Source of the DNA: a virus | Strand: one strand, 5' to 3' | Virus record (IMG/VR): IMGVR_UViG_3300012001_000009 | Span: 1-64,000 of that record | Length of the DNA stretch: 64,000 nt | In this document: positions 3,040 to 37,855 of the stretch, one piece after another | Layout: the number at the start of each line of letters is the position of its first letter | Position numbering within the stretch: position 1 is the stretch's first letter | Position numbers and translations under genes: made by a program | Notes under the pieces: model-generated | Seen by the model: only the letters and a program-made list of their open reading frames with translations | What the model was told of the DNA's origin: nothing | Database searches by the model: none

Positions 3040-4026
3040 ATGGCAAAGCTTCCTGCTTCAGCCCTCTGGCACAATATACCAGAGGAACTAAAAGCCCTAC
3101 CCCAATGGCTACTAGGCCGTGCTGACAAAACAGGCGCATTAAAAATACCAACATCAATCACTGCAGGAGGCAAGTTTTGTGCAGGGAGTAGCACCGATCC
3201 AAAGACTTGGTTGACCTTTGAGGCGGCTGTAGAGGCTGCTAGAAAGCACAATTATTCCATCGGTTTCGTATTGTGCAAAGATGATCCGTTTTGCGTAATC
3301 GATCTGGACGTTAAAAATGTTTTCAATGAAGCAGATAAAGAAAAATGGACGGACCAGGAAACGCTAGATCGCTATGAACGCCTCGTAGGAGCCTTTAACA
3401 GCTACAGCGAGCGGTCGCTATCGGGTCATGGTACTCATATCTGGATCATAGCAAACATTGGACTAGGGGCGCGTAGGGACGGCGTAGAGGTATATTCGCA
3501 AGAACGGTTCATCGTATGCACAGGCCGCATTATCGAGCATCTTCCGATAGCTGACCAGCAAGACATGATAAACAGTTTTGTGGCTGAAATGCACCGGGAT
3601 CAAATATCTCCGCTTGCACTCGTTGACAATCTACAGACCGAAGAGGACGAGGTTATACTCGAACGCGCTGCCAACGCGAGCAACGGCGACAAATTCATGG
3701 GATTGTGGAATTCTACTTGCAGCGAGGAAATTCCAGGAACCAATACAAAGCAGCTTGGCACGTTCGCAGAATACGGCTATGAGTCGCAGAGTGAGGCTGA
3801 CTACGCGCTAATGTCGATGCTCACCTTCTACAGCAAATCCAATGACCAATGCAAACGACTGTTCCGAATGTCGGGGTTGGGCAAACGTGCGAAGGCAACT
3901 AAGAATGACCGATACCTCAAGACGACCCTCGAATGGATTCGATCCCGCGAGGCGATGGAAAGCACTGCCCAAGCGAATGTAAAAATAAACCTGAGTAACC
4001 AGGTAAAAAAAGCAATAGCGTTTTAG
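3040..4026 (+). CDS. primase-polymerase domain protein (zero-frame product)
   Basis: A 328-aa protein of the phage and plasmid primase-polymerase type. Residues 80-165 hold the core: the metal-binding pair IDLD (Asp88, Asp90), the SLSGHGTHIW segment (His130), and VYSQERFIVCTGR, as in NrS-1-like prim-pols. The C-terminal part (about 240-310) resembles the helical bundle that follows this domain. It is expected to make primers at the fork. The reading frame ends at TAG 4024-4026, shortly after an A-AAA-AAA heptamer. A -1 shift there would join it to the DUF3987 helicase that follows, giving 809 aa, the architecture usually seen as one protein. Confidence 0.85.
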   Translation: MAKLPASALWHNIPEELKALPQWLLGRADKTGALKIPTSITAGGKFCAGSSTDPKTWLTFEAAVEAARKHNYSIGFVLCKDDPFCVIDLDVKNVFNEADKEKWTDQETLDRYERLVGAFNSYSERSLSGHGTHIWIIANIGLGARRDGVEVYSQERFIVCTGRIIEHLPIADQQDMINSFVAEMHRDQISPLALVDNLQTEEDEVILERAANASNGDKFMGLWNSTCSEEIPGTNTKQLGTFAEYGYESQSEADYALMSMLTFYSKSNDQCKRLFRMSGLGKRAKATKNDRYLKTTLEWIRSREAMESTAQANVKINLSNQVKKAIAF

Positions 4027-4070
4027 CTGGCGGACAGCCACAGCCTCCGCTGTGGCTAGTTGCTAAAACG
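4005..4070 (+). promoter_or_regulatory. programmed -1 ribosomal frameshift signal: slippery heptamer plus stem-loop
   Basis: Seven A residues (4005-4011) sit in the zero frame as A-AAA-AAA, the classic -1 slippery form. After a 7-base spacer comes a two-part stem: CGTTTTAGC (4019-4027) pairs with GCTAAAACG (4062-4070), and inside it AGCCACAGC (4036-4044) pairs with GCTGTGGCT (4049-4057) around a CTCC loop. Both stems are perfect 9-bp helices. The zero-frame stop (4024-4026) lies in the outer stem. The new frame stays open to 5468. A single missing A in the sequenced homopolymer is the main alternative. Confidence 0.8.
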
Positions 4071-5468
4071 TCTAAAATTATTTTACCACCACCGCATAAG
4101 CAGTTAAAGCTGCCTCCGATTGATTGGCCACCTGGATTCACAGGAGAGATTGCGAAATTCATTTTTAATAGCTCGGTGCTGCCAGTTAAAGAGGTGTCCA
4201 TAGTCGCAGCTATCGGGTTCATTGCAGGCATATGTGGTAAGGCTTACAACATACCTCAATCAGGGCTAAACGTCTACATGATTCTGGTTGGACTTTCTGG
4301 CATAGGTAAGGAGGCAATGCATACAGGGACGAGGTTCCTTATAAACGCAGTATGCAAACATTTGCCAGAGGCGTCAGTGTTCTTGGATTCTAAAGTTTAT
4401 GTATCTGGTGCTGCACTCATGAAAGCTGTTTTAGCCAATCCTAGTTTTGTCAACGTGATAGGCGAGTTTGGCCACACTCTAAAACGCATCGCAGAAAATC
4501 GAAATAGTGATACCAACATCCAGCAGCTTCGGGCAGTGATAACAAACCTGTATCAGAAAAGCGGAGCAGCATCTGAAGCAGGCGGGCTAGGGTACTCAGA
4601 CACCACGCAGAACGTCGAATCAGTCTCCGGGGTAGCGTACTCTATGATCGGCGAAACGACGCCAGCAAAGTTCTATGAATCGTTGAATCCGTCAGTTATG
4701 GAGGACGGGTTCCTTAGCCGATTTACGATAATCGAGTGCCCGAAAGACAGACCTGAATTGGTAGAGGAGCCAGTTACCGATCCTGATGAAAGTATGCTTA
4801 GTTATCTATGCGGCATATGTTCGCAGTCTTTACAGCTGATCGCCAAGAATAATGTGGAAATGGTCGTTGAGGATTCAGCCGCCAAAACACTTTTTCAGAA
4901 TTTTAACAAAGAGTGCAGAACGAATATAAACGCGAGCGAAGAGGATTCGCAACGCCAAATGTGGAATCGGGCTCACTTGAAGGCGAAACGAATGGCCGCA
5001 TTGTTTGCAGTAGCTGATAACCCATTCAGCCCAACCATAACTTTTGAACATGCTCAATACGCCATCAATCTAGTCTATCGAGATATCTCTATTATGGGTC
5101 GCCACATCATCACGGGCGACGTAGGGACTGGCGACGATGCGCGGGAACGGAAAATCCTATCGGTAATGTCTAGTTATCTATCCAGGCCTTATGAAGGTAA
5201 CGACGACAAGGTTAAGGTGCTGCATGACGACGGGTTGGTTACAAGGGCATACATTCAGCAATGTACCAACAATATAAAATCCTTTAGAGACCATCCTATG
5301 CAATCGTCGGCCGCACTGACAATCGCCATCAAGAGTCTCGAGGAGAATGGCCATATAAAAGAATTCGACAAAATGAAGCTTAACGTTAAATATGGCTTCA
5401 CTGGTAAATGTTACCAGTTGATAAAATTACCAGAAGTGGTAAATAAAACCAAGTTGAAAATGGTTTAG
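4011..5468 (+). CDS. DUF3987-type helicase part of the frameshifted primase-helicase
   Basis: This frame encodes 485 aa if entered by a -1 shift at 4011. It is open from 3999, with no ATG before 4198 and no Shine-Dalgarno near GTG 4176, which would be the first plausible internal start. Coding clearly begins upstream of 4176: WPPGFTGEIAKFIF and PVKEVSIVAAIGFIAGICG fit the DUF3987 N-terminus. The Walker A motif is GLSGIGKEA (about residue 418 of the fusion), and VNVIGEFG follows. DUF3987 proteins are P-loop replicative helicase-like ATPases found next to or fused with prim-pol domains, so the joined product is predicted to act as a primase-helicase. Confidence 0.8.
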   Translation, partial: SNSVLAGGQPQPPLWLVAKTSKIILPPPHKQLKLPPIDWPPGFTGEIAKFIFNSSVLPVKEVSIVAAIGFIAGICGKAYNIPQSGLNVYMILVGLSGIGKEAMHTGTRFLINAVCKHLPEASVFLDSKVYVSGAALMKAVLANPSFVNVIGEFGHTLKRIAENRNSDTNIQQLRAVITNLYQKSGAASEAGGLGYSDTTQNVESVSGVAYSMIGETTPAKFYESLNPSVMEDGFLSRFTIIECPKDRPELVEEPVTDPDESMLSYLCGICSQSLQLIAKNNVEMVVEDSAAKTLFQNFNKECRTNINASEEDSQRQMWNRAHLKAKRMAALFAVADNPFSPTITFEHAQYAINLVYRDISIMGRHIITGDVGTGDDARERKILSVMSSYLSRPYEGNDDKVKVLHDDGLVTRAYIQQCTNNIKSFRDHPMQSSAALTIAIKSLEENGHIKEFDKMKLNVKYGFTGKCYQLIKLPEVVNKTKLKMV

Positions 5469-14880: not shown

Positions 14881-14906
14881 TATTGGGTCTAAAACAAGGA
14901 TACCCC

Positions 14907-15653
14907 ATGCTAAATCCATTTCCGAGTTATCTAAATAAGCAACCCATCGAAAAGCGAACCAACCTTTACGAGGGAACGTTTTTGGATGTACATTCGATTT
15001 TTTATACCATCCAGGGTGAAGGTCCTTTTGTGGGACGACCAGCCATTTTCATTCGACTGGCTGGATGCAATCTGCAATGCCCTGGATGCGATACTGATTA
15101 CACTAGCGGGCGGCATATTTATTCAGTCGATATGGTTGTGGACCGGGTTCGTCTTGTAACACCCAGCCATAGGGATGCTAGAGGTAGAATGCTTGTGGTG
15201 ATTACAGGTGGCGAGCCGTTCCGACAGAACTTGACACCGTTAATAAAGGATTTGCGTCTATGTTTGTATGATGTGCAAATCGAGACAAACGGCACGCTTG
15301 CTCCGTATAATCCAGAGATATATGAAAACAGCCGTATCACCACCATCGTATGCAGCCCTAAAGCCGGCAAGATTCATCCGAAGCTGGAGCCGCTTATCGA
15401 TGCATACAAATACGTATTGAGCGCCGACAGCGTGGATTCTGAGGACGGCTTGCCGGTGTTAGCGCTTGGCCACACTGCCTCGCCTCGAGTCGCAAGACCT
15501 CGCGCAGGATTTATAGGCCCCGTCTATCTTCAACCGATGGACTCTGGTGACGAGGACACCAATCGGCGAAATCTAAAAGCTGTAATTGATAGCGCAATGC
15601 GATACAATTTTATTGTATGTCTACAATTACACAAAATCATTGGAATGGAGTAA
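14907..15653 (+). CDS. queE: 7-carboxy-7-deazaguanine synthase (QueE)
   Basis: Radical SAM enzyme that converts 6-carboxytetrahydropterin to 7-carboxy-7-deazaguanine, the third step towards preQ0. The 248-aa protein has the family start SIFYTIQGEGPFVGRPAIFI and the cluster motif CNLQCPGC (Cys54, Cys58, Cys61), in the C-x3-C-x2-C form. VITGGEPFRQ (SAM-binding GGE) and VQIETNGT follow, as in QueE. ATG 14907 has AAGGA upstream; an in-frame TTG at 14883 falls in the terminator tail. It opens an operon with queC four bases downstream. Confidence 0.95.
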   Translation: MLNPFPSYLNKQPIEKRTNLYEGTFLDVHSIFYTIQGEGPFVGRPAIFIRLAGCNLQCPGCDTDYTSGRHIYSVDMVVDRVRLVTPSHRDARGRMLVVITGGEPFRQNLTPLIKDLRLCLYDVQIETNGTLAPYNPEIYENSRITTIVCSPKAGKIHPKLEPLIDAYKYVLSADSVDSEDGLPVLALGHTASPRVARPRAGFIGPVYLQPMDSGDEDTNRRNLKAVIDSAMRYNFIVCLQLHKIIGME

Positions 15654-15656
15654 TCT

Positions 15657-16421
15657 ATGCGTAAAGCCTTAGTGGTATTAAGTGGTGGTCAGGACAGCAC
15701 CACCGCTTTGTTCTGGGCCAAAGAACATTTTGAGGAAGTGCATGCCATAACGTTTAATTATGGCCAGCTGCATATTATCGAAGTCAACGCGGCTATGAAA
15801 GTAGCCAAGATGGCTGGGGTGGCCTCGCATGAAATCATTCATGTGCCGCATTGTCTGGTTAGCACTAGCCCTCTGATTACCCACACTGATTTGGAACGAT
15901 ATGCGGATCATCGGGAAATGGAACGCATCATTGGTGGACGGGTTGAAAAGACATTTGTGCCAATGCGTAATGCGTTTTTCTTTGTTATCGCCATGAATCA
16001 CGCTGTGGCGCTCGGCAGCTATGATCTGGTTACAGGGGTTTGCCAAGAGGACAATGCGAACTATCCCGATTGCACCGAAACATTCGTTAATCGATTCATT
16101 TCCATGACAAATGCATCCATGGGAGCAGCGACTAACGAGTTCTATATCCATGCGCCGCTAATGCACCTAACGAAAGCGGAAACTGTTCGCATGTCCGCAG
16201 GTATGCCAGAATGCTGGAAGGCGCTTGCATACACACATACAAGCTACGATGGCATATATCCGCCGAATGACCACAACCACGCGAACATACTACGCGCTCA
16301 GGGCTTTCTTGAGGCGGGTTTTCCTGACCCCCTCGTTGTTCGCGCATGGAAAGAAGGGCTGATGGAGCTTCCGATTAGTGACAACTATGCCATCCTTTTA
16401 AATCAATCGCCAAAAGGGTGA
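15657..16421 (+). CDS. queC: 7-cyano-7-deazaguanine synthase (QueC), zinc-site variant
   Basis: ATP-dependent enzyme turning 7-carboxy-7-deazaguanine and ammonia into preQ0. The PP-loop SGGQDSTT (9-16), NYGQLH, FVPMRNAFF and TGVCQEDNANYPDC are all present, at normal length (254 aa). The zinc site is not: the usual TCYNG plus CGxCxxC is here TSYDG (Ser196) and NDHNHAN (Asn204, Asn207, Asn210), so all four ligand cysteines are replaced while the flanking LRAQGF is kept. His206, His208 and Asp205 might bind a metal instead. The rest of the protein shows no decay. Confidence 0.93.
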   Translation: MRKALVVLSGGQDSTTALFWAKEHFEEVHAITFNYGQLHIIEVNAAMKVAKMAGVASHEIIHVPHCLVSTSPLITHTDLERYADHREMERIIGGRVEKTFVPMRNAFFFVIAMNHAVALGSYDLVTGVCQEDNANYPDCTETFVNRFISMTNASMGAATNEFYIHAPLMHLTKAETVRMSAGMPECWKALAYTHTSYDGIYPPNDHNHANILRAQGFLEAGFPDPLVVRAWKEGLMELPISDNYAILLNQSPKG

Positions 16422-16428
16422 TGACAGA

Positions 16429-16899
16429 ATGACCTACCTATCTACAAAGACATACGGGCACGAAATCGGCCTAAGCTGCGCATTCCGACAATGGAAGGCG
16501 CATTCGCACTGTAACAAGCTGCACGGATACGCGCTGGGTGTGAAGTTCGTATTTGCTACTGCCGAGCCAGACCGATGCGGGTGGGTCGTTGATTTTGGCA
16601 GCTTGAAGTCGCTAAAACAAATGCTCCAGGACACTTTCGACCATACGGTGCTTGTTGCCAATGATGACCCTGAGTTAGAGGCATTCCATATGATGAATAA
16701 CATCGGCATCGCCAAAGTAGTCGTTTTGGAAGCCACTGGGTGCGAGGCGTTCGCAGAACTGATTTATAACTGCACGGAAGTGTGGTTACAAGATAACGGC
16801 TATGCGCCTCGAGTCGTTCTGCACAGTGTTGAGGTTTCTGAGCATGGGGCAAACTCGGCTATTTACTGTCCACAAGGAGGCAATAGTGCGCCTAATTGA
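16429..16899 (+). CDS. queD: 6-carboxy-5,6,7,8-tetrahydropterin synthase (QueD)
   Basis: Converts dihydroneopterin triphosphate to 6-carboxytetrahydropterin. The 156-aa protein has SCAFRQWKAHSHCNKLHGYAL, which carries zinc histidines and the catalytic Cys28, then WVVDFGSLKSLK, FDHTVLVANDDP and GCEAFAEL (the pterin-anchoring Glu). The HGY in place of HGH is typical of one phage/proteobacterial QueD subgroup as far as I recall. It starts eight bases after queC and overlaps folE by 14 bases. Confidence 0.92.
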   Translation: MTYLSTKTYGHEIGLSCAFRQWKAHSHCNKLHGYALGVKFVFATAEPDRCGWVVDFGSLKSLKQMLQDTFDHTVLVANDDPELEAFHMMNNIGIAKVVVLEATGCEAFAELIYNCTEVWLQDNGYAPRVVLHSVEVSEHGANSAIYCPQGGNSAPN

Positions 16900-17491
16900 A
16901 ATGGTTACACTTAAGGCCTTCGATGATAAGGTGTGTGTTGTTCACGAAGAAGAGTTGGTCCGAGGACTGCTAAAAGTGGCTGGAGAGAACTTCGACCGTG
17001 AAGGTTTGTTAGAGACTCCAGCCCGCGTTATCAAAGCTTGGAAAGAATGGACCTCTGGCTATGCTGTTGATGTTCCAGGTCTTTTGAAAGTATTTGAGGA
17101 CGGCGCAGATGGCTATGACGAAATGGTTATAGTTAAGGATATCCCCGTCTATAGCAAGTGCGAGCACCACCTTGCTGACATTTTCGGCACCTGCACCATT
17201 GCGTATATCCCGAATGGGAAAATTGTTGGACTGTCGAAGTTATCGCGTGTTGTAGATGCTTTCGCAAGACGTTTGCAAGTCCAGGAACGGCTTACGGGTC
17301 AGATTGCAGATGCGATTAACGATAACCTTAATCCGAAAGGTGTCGGTGTGATTATCAAAGCCCGGCACATGTGCATGGAATCTCGTGGCGTTCGACAACA
17401 AGGACACTATACGATAACAAGCGCCCTGCGCGGAGACATGCTTGATGATCCAGGTACCCGTGCAGAATTTATAATGTTGGCGAGGGATTGA
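16886..17491 (+). CDS. folE: GTP cyclohydrolase I (FolE)
   Basis: Zinc enzyme making dihydroneopterin triphosphate from GTP, the first step of 7-deazaguanine synthesis. The 201-aa protein has ETPARVIKAW, SKCEHHL (Cys92, His95), GLSKLSRVVDAFARRLQVQERLT and ARHMCMESRGV (Cys163), that is, the zinc ligands and substrate-binding segments. GTG 16886 is chosen because AAGGAGG ends five bases before it; an in-frame ATG lies at 16901. Carrying its own FolE means the phage can raise the precursor supply rather than depend on host folate enzymes. Confidence 0.95.
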   Translation: MRLIEMVTLKAFDDKVCVVHEEELVRGLLKVAGENFDREGLLETPARVIKAWKEWTSGYAVDVPGLLKVFEDGADGYDEMVIVKDIPVYSKCEHHLADIFGTCTIAYIPNGKIVGLSKLSRVVDAFARRLQVQERLTGQIADAINDNLNPKGVGVIIKARHMCMESRGVRQQGHYTITSALRGDMLDDPGTRAEFIMLARD

Positions 17492-17494
17492 GCC

Positions 17495-17899
17495 ATGAAA
17501 TTTTACATTGCGGCAAGATTTAGCAAACGACCAGAGGCCCATGCATTGGCTAGAAATCTTATGGCACTGGGGCATGAGATAACATCCAGATGGGTACAAC
17601 CAGATAGTGACCATGTAATTCCGACAGGGTTGTCTGAGCAGGCGGAGGATCATGAAAGGGTGCGGTTTGCACTCGAGGATTGCGCGGATGTGGCTGATTG
17701 CGATTGCTGCATATCGCTAATGGAGGAGCCTCGCAATAACGGGCGTGGCGGCAGGCATGTAGAATTCGGCTATGCGATGGGATTGGGAAAAGTCCTAGTG
17801 GTTATTGGGCCAAAGGAAACTGTTTTCCATCATTTGCCTAGGGTTAGGCATTTTAAAAATACGTCAGAATTTATTGAATTTCTTATGGAGCGGGCTTGA
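17495..17899 (+). CDS. nucleoside deoxyribosyltransferase-like protein
   Basis: A 134-aa Rossmann-like protein starting MKFYIAARFSKRPEAHALA, with ITSRWV, a central DCADVADCDCCISLMEEP and GRGGRHVEFGYAMGLGK. The last is the pattern of the nucleoside 2-deoxyribosyltransferase/DUF4406 group, where the Glu of xxVEFGYA is the catalytic position. It sits inside the 7-deazaguanine operon between folE and queF, with three-base spacing on one side and one base on the other. It may process nucleosides or bases linked to the modification, but no substrate can be read from the sequence. Confidence 0.75.
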   Translation: MKFYIAARFSKRPEAHALARNLMALGHEITSRWVQPDSDHVIPTGLSEQAEDHERVRFALEDCADVADCDCCISLMEEPRNNGRGGRHVEFGYAMGLGKVLVVIGPKETVFHHLPRVRHFKNTSEFIEFLMERA

Positions 17900-17900
17900 T

Positions 17901-18326
17901 ATGTCTGAAAATTTAAAATCGTTGGGTTCATCGACCAGGTACGTCTACGACAAACCTGATCCGAGTTTGCTGGAGAAGTTCCCCAGCCCTACATTCACCT
18001 TGGAAAAAAATCCAGTCGGCGCGGAACAGGTTATCGATATCGTTTGCCCTGAGTTCACGTCCCTATGCCCAAAGACAGGGCAACCTGATTTTGCGACAAT
18101 TCGCATTAAATACGCACCCGAGGAATGGTGTGTGGAATCCAAATCGCTAAAGCTGTATTTGGGTTCGTTCAGGATGCACGGCGAATTCCATGAGGCTTGC
18201 GTTAATCGAATGTGCAACGATCTTGTGGCACTCTTGAAGCCACGATACCTCGAGATTTGCGGCGAGTTCACACCTCGGGGCGGAATTCCATTTTGGCCAA
18301 CGAGTGTGTACTATGCTGATATCTGA
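17901..18326 (+). CDS. queF: preQ0 reductase, unimodular QueF type
   Basis: NADPH-dependent nitrile reductase converting preQ0 to preQ1. The 141-aa protein has the short (B. subtilis-type) layout: FTSLCPKTGQPDFATI with nucleophile Cys56 and Asp63, ESKSLKLYLGSFR (the NADPH-binding signature), FHEACVNRM with Glu98, and FTPRGGIP. All catalytic residues are intact. Archaeal QueF-like amidinotransferases share part of the signature, so archaeosine-type chemistry cannot be fully excluded. ATG 17901 starts one base after the previous stop; the 3' end overlaps the next gene. Confidence 0.92.
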   Translation: MSENLKSLGSSTRYVYDKPDPSLLEKFPSPTFTLEKNPVGAEQVIDIVCPEFTSLCPKTGQPDFATIRIKYAPEEWCVESKSLKLYLGSFRMHGEFHEACVNRMCNDLVALLKPRYLEICGEFTPRGGIPFWPTSVYYADI

Positions 18327-18507
18327 CTTGGAGCCAGGAATGGCGATTCAGTATAAGCAGGATGTCCGTGGCTGGATTGAGGTTCGCGTTCAAGAGATTG
18401 ACTACGAAAGGCAAAACGTAAAGGTTAGAACGCCCGCCCAGTTAGGTATCTATCGGAGTAAAGTCATAACCGACTTAAACCGGCTTAAAGTAAAGCATAA
18501 GCCGTGA
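18313..18507 (+). CDS. hypothetical protein, 64 aa, between queF and dpdA
   Basis: A small beta-rich, basic protein (GMAIQYKQDVRGWIEVRVQEI, then VKVRTPAQLG) with an SH3- or KOW-like pattern. It overlaps queF by 14 bases and the dpdA start by 4 (GTGA), so it is translated with both. It could be an accessory factor of the transglycosylase, but no family is recognised. Confidence 0.65.
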   Translation: MLISDLEPGMAIQYKQDVRGWIEVRVQEIDYERQNVKVRTPAQLGIYRSKVITDLNRLKVKHKP

Positions 18508-19433
18508 ATTTATATTTTTCTGGATTCGGGGCTAGAGATCTTGATCTTGATCCCAGAATCCCTCGCGGGCATCGGTATCGGCTGCTATCTTGCCATGAGG
18601 AATATATCGAAGTAGCTCGTAGATTCTCAAACGATCTAAAAGACGGTATGGAGGATCCTTATAGCTTAATGTTCGATTCTGGGGCTTTTACCGCATGGAA
18701 TAAAGGCAGGGAGGTTGTATTAAAAGATTTGATTGAGGTTTATGATGAAATGATGAACCTTAGTTATGATCGCGCTAAAGACATATGGTTAATTTCACTC
18801 GATAAGATCCCCGGGTCCCCGGGTCGAACTGCTGGGCCAGAGGAGCTTATCGAGTGCTGTCGAATATCTGACGAGAATTTTACCATTCTATCGGAACGAT
18901 ACGGGGAGCGTGTTTTGCCCGTGTTCCATCAAAACGAACCGACCTCACGTTTGCGCGAAGTGGCAGACATGGCGCCGTATATCTGCGTATCTCCTCGGAA
19001 TGATCTACATGAAAGCCAGCGCGTTAGATGGTCTGCCGAAGTTCATAGCCTGATCCCTGGGAAGATGACACATGGCCTGGCGACAACGGGCTATGGAATG
19101 ATGACCACAATACCTTGGGGTAGTGTCGATTCGGCGTCATGGGTCTTTTGCGCGACAAACGGCGGCATCATTAGGGACCATCGCCTTCGTGTTCTGCAAA
19201 TGTCAGATCAATCAACCTCCCAGAAAGTAAAGGACCAGCACTTCAAAACTTTGCCGGCTATCATACAGGACAAGTTTAGGGAATTTGTGGAGGTTCGGGG
19301 GTTCACTGTAGAAGGGCTAATAACTGAGTTCAGAGAACGATTGGTCTGGAATCGCGTGATCCTTAGTGAACTGGCACAATCAATCTCTGATAAAATAGAG
19401 AATCCATTTTCTGTTGGGTTATTTGATCTTTGA
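18504..19433 (+). CDS. dpdA: DpdA-type DNA guanine transglycosylase
   Basis: A 309-aa TGT-fold protein of the phage DpdA kind, which exchanges guanine in DNA for a 7-deazaguanine. Visible signatures: MFDSGAFTAW (Asp58, matching the DSGGF base-binding Asp of tRNA transglycosylases), ISLDKIPG (Asp100), LPVFHQNE, YICVSPRND, THGLATTG and WGSVDSASW (Asp209, the expected nucleophile). The zinc Cys cluster of tRNA-TGT is absent, as expected for DpdA. The start is a GTG overlapping the previous stop. Position after queE-queC-queD-folE-queF strongly supports a DNA rather than tRNA target. Confidence 0.88.
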   Translation: MNLYFSGFGARDLDLDPRIPRGHRYRLLSCHEEYIEVARRFSNDLKDGMEDPYSLMFDSGAFTAWNKGREVVLKDLIEVYDEMMNLSYDRAKDIWLISLDKIPGSPGRTAGPEELIECCRISDENFTILSERYGERVLPVFHQNEPTSRLREVADMAPYICVSPRNDLHESQRVRWSAEVHSLIPGKMTHGLATTGYGMMTTIPWGSVDSASWVFCATNGGIIRDHRLRVLQMSDQSTSQKVKDQHFKTLPAIIQDKFREFVEVRGFTVEGLITEFRERLVWNRVILSELAQSISDKIENPFSVGLFDL

Positions 19434-19731: not shown

Positions 19732-20695
19732 AACACTAAACCTGGTCCGAGGGGCTGTATCCACCCAGACACTTATTCCTGCCATGACGCATTTCTATAT
19801 CAATGGCGAACAGATACAAAGTACAAATGGCAGAATAACAATTGATGCGTGGGGACCTGGCACTGGGATTCAGGCGTTGGTCCCGGCGGAACGTTTTTTA
19901 AAAGCCATAGGGGACGGGGAATCCAAATTAGTGTTTGTTCTCGATGGTGACAAACTGGTAATTAAAAAGGGACGCCTGCGCGTAACAATCCACACGCTAC
20001 CGCTAAAAGATTTTCCTATAGTTGCCGACTTTGATGGCGAGCCTGTAGCGTTCGATGAAGGTTTGATAAAAGCTCTGCGCCGACTCGTTCCCTTTATCTC
20101 CAACGATGCTTCGCGTCCGTGGTCCAATTCTGTCATGATACGCGATGGCTACGCCTACGCCACAAACAACGTACTGTTGGCGCGTGTTCCATTCGACACA
20201 GATCGGCAATTGATCCTACCAACCCACCTGATTACTGAAATACTAAGAATCGGGGAAACCCCTGTAGAAATACTCGTCACTGACGGCACTGTAGCCCTCA
20301 TATACGACACGTTCAGGATTCGCGCCCAACAAGTGATGGGAGAATGGCCTACGCAGCTTACAGCCCTCGTAGATCGCCTGCAAAGTGTATGCTTAAGTGA
20401 AGTCCCCGCGGGATTGTTTGAAGCTGTCGAAGAACTGAAGCCCTTTTTCCCAGATCCCAAGATCCCTATTGTGGAGTTTGGGCCCGAAGGTGTATCTACC
20501 AAAGAAGGCATACACAGTGCGATGGTTGAACAGTGCGGATTGCCCTTATCTACGTATCGTTACGAATCGCTTATAACCATGTTATCTGTCGCTACACACG
20601 CCGATTTCACCTCGTATCCTGATCCCGTACCTTTTAGCGGAGAGGACGGCATAGAAGGGTTTATTTGCGGTCTGCGACAAACCACAAATGTCTAA
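19724..20695 (+). CDS. DNA polymerase III beta-type sliding clamp
   Basis: A 323-aa clamp. The N-terminus LKTLNLVRGAVSTQTLIPAMTHFYI is the family opening; VPAERFLKAIG and HTLPLKDFPI follow in domain 1. Domain 2 includes RLVPFISNDASRPWSNSVMI and GYAYATNNVLLARVPF, the most conserved block of phage DnaN-like clamps. It is shorter than bacterial DnaN (about 366 aa), with a reduced third domain. It should tether the family B polymerase encoded two genes downstream. Confidence 0.85.
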   Translation: MLKTLNLVRGAVSTQTLIPAMTHFYINGEQIQSTNGRITIDAWGPGTGIQALVPAERFLKAIGDGESKLVFVLDGDKLVIKKGRLRVTIHTLPLKDFPIVADFDGEPVAFDEGLIKALRRLVPFISNDASRPWSNSVMIRDGYAYATNNVLLARVPFDTDRQLILPTHLITEILRIGETPVEILVTDGTVALIYDTFRIRAQQVMGEWPTQLTALVDRLQSVCLSEVPAGLFEAVEELKPFFPDPKIPIVEFGPEGVSTKEGIHSAMVEQCGLPLSTYRYESLITMLSVATHADFTSYPDPVPFSGEDGIEGFICGLRQTTNV

Positions 20696-21470
20696 TAGTG
20701 GCATTTATATAATTGAAAATCTTTCCAATGGAAAGAGGTATGTTGGTTCTGCGGTTAATTTAAACAGTAGGAAAAGCTGCCATTTTACAAGCCTAGTCAA
20801 AAATAAACATGCCAACGTAAAACTTCAGAGCGCTTGGAATAAATACGGTGAATGTTGTTTTATTTTTTATGTAATTGAATATGTTGACGACAAAACCAAA
20901 TTGATTGAACGGGAACAGTATTGGATTGACGCCTTAAACGTTGTTGAGGACGGGTATAATATTAGCCCTAGTGCGGGTAGTTTGCTAGGGTTTAAGCATT
21001 CGGCTGAGTTTCGAGCCAGATGCAAAGTGCTTGGAAAAACACCAGCTAATTTAGAAAATTTAGCAAAACTGGCTTTGATGAATATTGATAGACCTTGCGA
21101 AAAATCTACCCGTATTAAAATTTCATCTGCAAATAAAAATAAAGTTAGAACAACGGCGCAACGAAAAAACATTTCAACAGCATTGTTAGAATTACCAATA
21201 GAAGTAAAAAAGAAAAAGGTAAAAAAGTTTTTAGAAACAATGCAAAACAAAACACCTGAAGAAAAAGCTGAAATATCAAATAAACTATCTAATAGAAGCA
21301 AAGGTGTCCCTAAGCCACCTAGAACAGCCGCACATTGTAAAAACATTTCTATATCTGCGTCGGCCGCACACGCTAGAATGTCTGAGGAGGCAAAAGCTGC
21401 AAAAGCAGCAAAAATAAGTGCCACTAAGCTTCGTAAAAATGCTGAAAAGCTTGGAATATCTAATGAGTAG
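20688..21470 (+). CDS. GIY-YIG homing endonuclease, free-standing
   Basis: A 260-aa protein: GIYIIENLSNGKRYVGSA gives the GIY-YIG motif (residues 5-18), with a catalytic-type Arg (NSRKSCH) and Glu (LIEREQYWID). Repeated DNA-binding motifs follow, of the NUMOD3 kind (GFKHSAEFRARC, GVPKPPRTAAHCKN). The gene is visibly more AT-rich than its neighbours, suggesting separate origin. It overlaps the clamp stop by eight bases and the polymerase start by eight bases. Such genes usually spread by cutting an allele that lacks them. Confidence 0.88.
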   Translation: MSNSGIYIIENLSNGKRYVGSAVNLNSRKSCHFTSLVKNKHANVKLQSAWNKYGECCFIFYVIEYVDDKTKLIEREQYWIDALNVVEDGYNISPSAGSLLGFKHSAEFRARCKVLGKTPANLENLAKLALMNIDRPCEKSTRIKISSANKNKVRTTAQRKNISTALLELPIEVKKKKVKKFLETMQNKTPEEKAEISNKLSNRSKGVPKPPRTAAHCKNISISASAAHARMSEEAKAAKAAKISATKLRKNAEKLGISNE

Positions 21471-36813: not shown

Positions 36814-37424
36814 TCACTCCTTGATATTTTCCTGCGCCGCTATTCTTTGATTGTGAGAATCCACCGACACTATTTCCAGAAGGGCGTATAAGTCCTCCGT
36901 TCCGTAGACTGTATCTAATTCATGTAAGGTGGCTAATCGGCTGGATATTACTGCGCCTAGGGCTCTTGGAACATTAACGTATTCCATATATATGCCGCTA
37001 GGCGTTTTATTATCCAGGTTTAGCTCGCGGCGTCGGTAAAAAAATCGGTGTGCAGTGCGAACACCTCCTTACGAAGTTTAAGCCGGGTAACAACCTCCTC
37101 AACGTCGTCCTCTATCAAGTAACGAACGACCTGCGGTTTAGCTGGGTCTGGTACGATCTGTATGCAAGAGAACATTTCATCCAGTAGGGGCTTGGCGTCC
37201 TCGAAGCGCATACCGCCAAGCATTTTTAAACCCATAGCTGCAACACCCGCTAGACCAGCTTGCGCGATATCGTCTGGAATTTCTACCCCGCCCCTCGCGG
37301 CGGCCAGTATCACTCGAACAGCCCAATCCTCAGCTTGTGAGGCGGACATTTCTCGCAGGAGGAACGTCTTACCTTGATCCCGTCCCTCCGCGTCGATTGT
37401 TACCAGTGCAGTTTTGCGAGCCAT
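36814..37424 (-). CDS. extended tail assembly chaperone, made by -1 frameshift
   Basis: The -1 frame is open from the slippery site to TGA 36816-36814, four bases before the tape measure start. It adds 74 aa to the first 129 codons, for 203 aa in all. The added part begins YRRRELNLDNKTPSG and ends AAQENIKE. Two overlapping products of one start, with a frameshift just before the tape measure, are the hallmark of phage tail chaperones (lambda G/GT, P2 E/E'). The added domain would recruit the tape measure while tail tube subunits polymerise. Confidence 0.8.
37020..37424 (-). CDS. tail assembly chaperone, short form
   Basis: ATG 37424 overlaps the tail tube stop (TAATG); the product is 134 aa. 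Features: LVTIDAEGRDQGKTFLLREM, then helices SQAEDWAVRVILAAARGG and DDVEEVVTRLKLRKEVFALH near the end, as in this class of phage chaperones. Termination at 37020-37022 gives the short form, and a -1 shift a few codons earlier gives the long form. Confidence 0.8.
   Translation of the reverse strand: MARKTALVTIDAEGRDQGKTFLLREMSASQAEDWAVRVILAAARGGVEIPDDIAQAGLAGVAAMGLKMLGGMRFEDAKPLLDEMFSCIQIVPDPAKPQVVRYLIEDDVEEVVTRLKLRKEVFALHTDFFTDAAS
37038..37044 (-). promoter_or_regulatory. slippery heptamer T-TTT-TTT for the tail chaperone frameshift
   Basis: On the - strand the codons read GAT TTT TTT ACC, so the heptamer is T-TTT-TTT in the zero frame, six codons before the stop. Only weak pairing is seen downstream (GCCGC with GCGGC, about 30 bases apart). 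The open -1 frame and its exact position before the tape measure support a programmed event. Confidence 0.75.
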
Positions 37425-37855
37425 TAGATAGGAGCTCCGAGTGCCGATTCCCATTTGATCTGGAATTTGCGAGGTTGCAGAAGTTTTTTGGCTTCCGATA
37501 ACGGCGTGTAGTTTGTCAGAATACCGTTAGACAGAATATACGCCTTCCCGATGCTTGGCTGGACCGCTGTACCAAACGCGCTGTAGACTTCCCTGGCTGC
37601 TTCTTGTGCAGAATACCAGGCCTCAAAAAAGTCATTAGACTTGCTGTTAGCCTGTAGGGTAACATTCATGTTTTTGATCTGAGGGATCCAGCCTGCTGCC
37701 ATTCTTCCGTCAGCACCCATTTGGACCTCCGCTGATTCGATCATGTCCATGGAGAACATGTCATCGGTGGCGAACCCTTGAAGCTGCTGAGGTATTGCAA
37801 ACAGGCTTGTAACACCAATTAGCAGTACGCTATTGGCTGAGGTGATAGAGGACAT
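37424..37855 (-). CDS. tail tube protein, 143 aa
   Basis: A small beta-rich protein next to the sheath: VLLIGVTSLFAIPQQLQGFATDD, VQMGADGRMAAGWIPQIK, and TLQANSKSNDFFEAWYSAQEA. This is the pattern of tube proteins paired with DUF3383 sheaths, including a conserved ADGRMAxGW core. It overlaps the chaperone by one base. Confidence 0.8.
   Translation of the reverse strand: MSSITSANSVLLIGVTSLFAIPQQLQGFATDDMFSMDMIESAEVQMGADGRMAAGWIPQIKNMNVTLQANSKSNDFFEAWYSAQEAAREVYSAFGTAVQPSIGKAYILSNGILTNYTPLSEAKKLLQPRKFQIKWESALGAPI

Follow-up and report, generated by a model that had tools for sequence, protein, structure and literature searches.

How does a phage express a primase-helicase whose two halves lie in different reading frames? 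The question is posed by IMGVR_UViG_3300012001_000009, an IMG/VR virus record of 71,988 bp, of which we analyzed the first 64 kb, hereafter termed the window. Here, a primase-polymerase open reading frame (ORF) stops shortly behind a run of seven A's (A7), and a DUF3987 helicase is encoded in the -1 frame. An earlier note on this DNA had proposed that a programmed -1 frameshift joins the two. The features on which the argument turns are the following:

3040-4026, plus strand: 0-frame ORF of 328 aa encoding a primase-polymerase and a helix-bundle domain, the product if no frameshift occurs
3999-5468, plus strand: open -1 frame encoding a short linker and then the DUF3987 helicase, identified by phrog_3022 and DUF3987 matches
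4005-4011, plus strand: candidate slippery heptamer A-AAA-AAA (third base of GTA, then AAA AAA; G follows), from sequence and codon register
4012-4018, plus strand: 7-nt spacer between heptamer and stem
4019-4070, plus strand: two stacked 9-bp stems, 4019-4027/4062-4070 and 4036-4044/4049-4057, from the predicted fold and its pair probabilities

The 0-frame ORF terminates at a TAG codon (4024-4026), and the -1 frame is bounded upstream by a TAA codon (3996-3998). The two overlap by only 28 nt, and A7 falls inside this overlap. A -1 slip at A7 would join NQVKK to SNSVLAGG and yield a chain of 809 aa; a check of sequence and frames reproduced to the base the coordinates, frames and joined length given earlier. 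The claim that the helicase N-terminus lacks a start of its own also held: scanning the -1 frame, we found no ATG, GTG or TTG upstream of GTG 4176, which lies downstream of the conserved helicase motif WPPG at 4125. Before that GTG, the only codons of interest are CTG and ATT, the first of them within the hairpin.

Domain assignments for both parts, likewise proposed from the letters, are supported by family, domain and structure matches. The primase family phrog_3022 (788 columns) matches the first part with its positions 6-313 (E 6.9e-70) and the -1-frame part with positions 355-784 (E 2.3e-127). Pfam places an NrS-1 helix-bundle domain (HBD) at residues 250-298 of the 328-aa product and DUF3987 in the -1 frame (E 1.9e-11), where the helicase Walker A motif reads GLSGIGKE, with GIGKE common to the relatives. 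An AlphaFold model of the 328-aa product is confident over nearly its full length (mean pLDDT 91.5, pTM 0.62). Compared by Foldseek with NrS-1 N300, it aligns over 288 columns (E 6e-14) at a low overall TM-score of 0.42, which we attribute to a flexible join between the two domains. N300 polymerizes and primes alone, and the C-terminal part of the NrS-1 protein raises DNA binding and yield (PMC7102993). By analogy with this relative of about 23% identity, from which the comparison is drawn, it is plausible that the 328-aa product is a complete, N300-like PrimPol-HBD unit, an enzyme rather than a fragment.

To place the junction in context, we collected relatives from named phages (many of them Queuovirinae), IMG/VR contigs and genome contigs, obtaining 83 distinct loci with both domains. 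In all 83 the linker is read through in one frame, as expected from the claim that the two domains usually form one chain, and among the sequences examined the frame break at the linker is unique to the window's record. Since its two halves belong to one family, phrog_3022, and every one of these relatives is continuous, a fused product is to be expected in the window virus as well. Identity over the whole joined chain is 39-46% in the ten relatives compared in full, no closer relative than about 50% emerged from protein scans specific to the window, and the exact junction sequence has no match elsewhere in IMG/VR. The linker itself is poorly conserved. Linker folds with z <= -4.5 occur in 2/83 relatives, against 9/83 control stretches in the helicase, and we therefore rejected the hairpin as a family trait. 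The comparison with related phages suggested in the earlier note upheld the uninterrupted chain as the norm. Taken literally, these 83 relatives are the outcome that the note had named as refuting, an intact gene lacking the stem; at an identity of at most about 50%, however, they say little about the window's own lineage.

Away from the linker, the related genes show further peculiarities. Frame breaks occur in the helicase of Quinobequin-P09 (L003:3200-3300) and in the primase of another relative (L078:1800-1880); both are probably sequence errors or mutations, and they give a rough base rate of such events of about 2/83 related records. The primase-helicase of IMGVR_UViG_3300018083_000218 (L057:1400-3841) carries in its frame two TGA codons spaced 11 codons apart, each aligned with serine in nine of nine compared relatives; no other gene in its stretch clearly requires TGA to be read as an amino acid, and a search for tRNA genes came back empty. 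Most relatives from bacterial genomes (L096-L114) carry the DUF3987 helicase as a standalone ORF without PrimPol. Their hosts include sphingomonads, Stutzerimonas, Denitromonas and Dechloromonas, among others.

At the junction itself, A7 is decoded in the 0-frame as GTA AAA AAA GCA, which puts the run in X-XXY-YYZ register (GTA AAA AAA G, 4003-4012). Both the in-register heptamer and the seven-base spacer noted before were found to be correct. Heptamers of the type A-AAA-AAR make up 72% of those in IS1/IS3-family sites, where stimulators usually follow at 5-8 nt, a range that includes the 7 nt seen here (PMC4066793). The two stems also proved exact as described, with a pair probability of at least 0.91 for every pair of both; weaker predicted pairs lengthen the hairpin to 4016/4074, and the 0-frame stop sits within the lower stem. 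The 64 nt 3' of the heptamer (4012-4075) have a minimum free energy of -30.9 kcal/mol, compared with a mean of -17.7 (sd 2.9) for dinucleotide shuffles (z -4.54; 0/200 equally stable). When 21,312 overlapping segments of 64 nt were sampled from both strands of the window at all G+C contents, 0.11% equaled or exceeded this stability, most of them G+C-rich; among the segments with 40-56% G+C, none reached it apart from the site itself, at the limit. The two strands of the window hold 98 homopolymer runs of 6 or more bases, and the strongest downstream fold among them is the one at 4005 (by base shuffling, z -6.6 with 100 shuffles and -5.4 with 400; next site -4.3), and no other run is followed by a comparable hairpin.

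These observations have to be weighed against the reading that an uninterrupted A8 is the true or ancestral state, the gene being one continuous frame, and that A7 arose by an assembly or sequencing deletion or by a recent inactivating mutation, with the hairpin a coincidence. The continuity of every relative at the junction fits this reading, as do the breaks elsewhere in two related records, and A7, one of the window's longest homopolymers, is where an indel might readily arise. Heptamer register alone is no evidence against it, since loss of one A from A8 produces that register automatically. What separates recoding from error is the hairpin: a fold as unusual as this one, so close behind the run, is expected at roughly one in a thousand positions, and the relatives' linkers show no tendency toward such folds, so that a deletion leaves the structure right behind the run unexplained. 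A rough error prior of a few percent, multiplied by this one in a thousand, is far smaller than even a low prior for recoding. The record's other 7-base homopolymers, moreover, sit in apparently intact genes, and no other gene looks broken. We also rejected the idea of a record full of broken genes, as the one suspicious pair (33235-34116/32481-33302) consists of neighbors annotated separately in relatives too. On balance, a lost A is an unlikely account of the locus.

Other explanations accept A7 as genuine. If RNA polymerase slipped on the run and added an A to some transcripts, the frame would be restored and the fusion made from edited mRNA, a programmed transcriptional realignment. Homopolymers of A are slippery for RNA polymerase, and 11 A's restore frame in this manner in Citrobacter tssM (PMC4256274). 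Runs longer than 7 A are usual at such sites (PMC3711429), however, whereas the run at 4005 has exactly 7, and transcriptional slippage requires no downstream stem, yet an exceptional one is present; we judge this mechanism very improbable. A true gene split, in which reinitiation or an unusual start codon yields a separate helicase, finds a parallel in the standalone helicases of the chromosomal relatives. One of these (L099), which adjoins an integrase, begins with its own ATG, whereas the window helicase has no usual start codon until past WPPG, and we give a split scarcely any credence. It is hardly conceivable, finally, that A7 and the hairpin act at the level of DNA or transcription rather than in decoding, for instance as an antisense terminator or as an origin hairpin, with an incidental frame break. 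A T tract visible in the sequence, TTGCTTTTTTT, does follow the stem on the minus strand, but the adjoining predicted genes lie on the plus strand, a terminator scan did not pick up the stem, a search of Rfam gave no match and hence no known RNA family, and the frame break would be left without explanation.

The best explanation, and in our assessment a probable one, is that a programmed -1 ribosomal frameshift expresses the primase-helicase in two forms. The majority of ribosomes would decode V-K-K at GTA AAA AAA and terminate at the TAG, releasing the 328-aa primase-polymerase with its HBD. A minority would stall at the hairpin, move back one base on A-AAA-AAA and read on through QVKK-SNSVLAGG up to 5468, giving the 809-aa primase-helicase, the form that all relatives make from a single frame. 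Here, we infer the slippage itself, the ribosome's part in it, the efficiency of the event and any gain from surplus free primase; the ratio of the 328-aa to the 809-aa form would presumably be fixed. That E. coli has stronger heptamers than A-AAA-AAA was counted against frameshifting, and that the record's other genes appear intact in a gene survey was counted for it, as was an apparent second -1 site of the genome at its tail-chaperone position. We discounted our confidence because a single record stands behind the claim. The wider proposition, that this lineage places its replicative primase-helicase under frameshift control and keeps free primase-polymerase in constant surplus over the form tethered to the helicase, we regard as evenly balanced.

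Known recoding systems provide several parallels. E. coli dnaX (tau/gamma) and the IS1/IS3 sites likewise combine an A-AAA-AAR heptamer with a stem a few bases downstream and make two products with a common N-terminus, and dnaX, too, encodes a replication protein. In dnaX, however, the shift produces the shorter protein, whereas in the window it would produce the longer. In contrast to these systems, the candidate site in the window has no clear Shine-Dalgarno-like stimulator upstream of the heptamer. The tail assembly chaperones (G/GT) of tailed phages are likewise a phage gene pair in which -1 slippage makes the fusion the long product; they serve virion assembly, whereas the window pair belongs to replication. 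The primase-helicases of NrS-1 and of Queuovirinae (phrog_3022) have the same order of PrimPol, HBD, linker and helicase and a length of about 800 aa, but are encoded in one uninterrupted frame, where the window linker has a frame break, a heptamer and a hairpin. Bacteriophage T7 gene 4, whose primase fold is unrelated to that of the window primase, is likewise one phage gene that yields a primase-helicase and a single-activity form (63 and 56 kDa). In T7, the short form arises from an internal start and retains the helicase (PMC12593628), whereas in the window the primase would be the short form and the long one would be the product of recoding.

Elsewhere in the window, an in-register T-TTT-TTT (37044-37038) links two small ORFs (36814-37454, minus strand) immediately ahead of the tape-measure gene, and a -1 shift from it leads into the second ORF; lying where tail chaperones are usually encoded, this appears to be a tail-chaperone frameshift and would be the second -1 site of the genome. 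The stretches 14883-19433 and 27510-60805 bring together a queuosine-type set (QueE, QueC, QueD, two GTP-cyclohydrolase-like proteins and a queuine transferase), a contractile-tail structural module with tail sheath and baseplate, and a terminase that shares about 60% identity with that of Burkholderia phage Magia. A GIY-YIG-type homing endonuclease gene (20688-21470) is flanked by the genes for the DNA polymerase and its processivity factor. Judged by its gene content, the genome is a mosaic of queuosine-type genes, a Queuovirinae-like replication gene and a contractile-tail module.

A literature search, which covered few subscription journals, returned no report of a frameshifted phage primase or primase-helicase. 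The mechanism is known from dnaX, IS elements and tail chaperones; a primase-helicase gene would be a place for it without a precedent that we found. Annotated phage frameshifting lies nearly all in tail chaperones, which account for 2397 of the 2476 frameshifted genes annotated by SEA-PHAGES, the other 79 being hypothetical (PMC10885494); in a replication enzyme, such a site would be a case of recoding that governs how much primase is made relative to helicase. Gene callers would annotate such a locus as a primase followed by an N-terminally clipped helicase. The site would also offer a compact natural test of how a PrimPol behaves once free of the helicase ring. If the proposed frameshift is real and fixes the ratio of the two forms, it would constitute a switch of replisome stoichiometry resembling tau/gamma, located in the priming enzyme of a phage.
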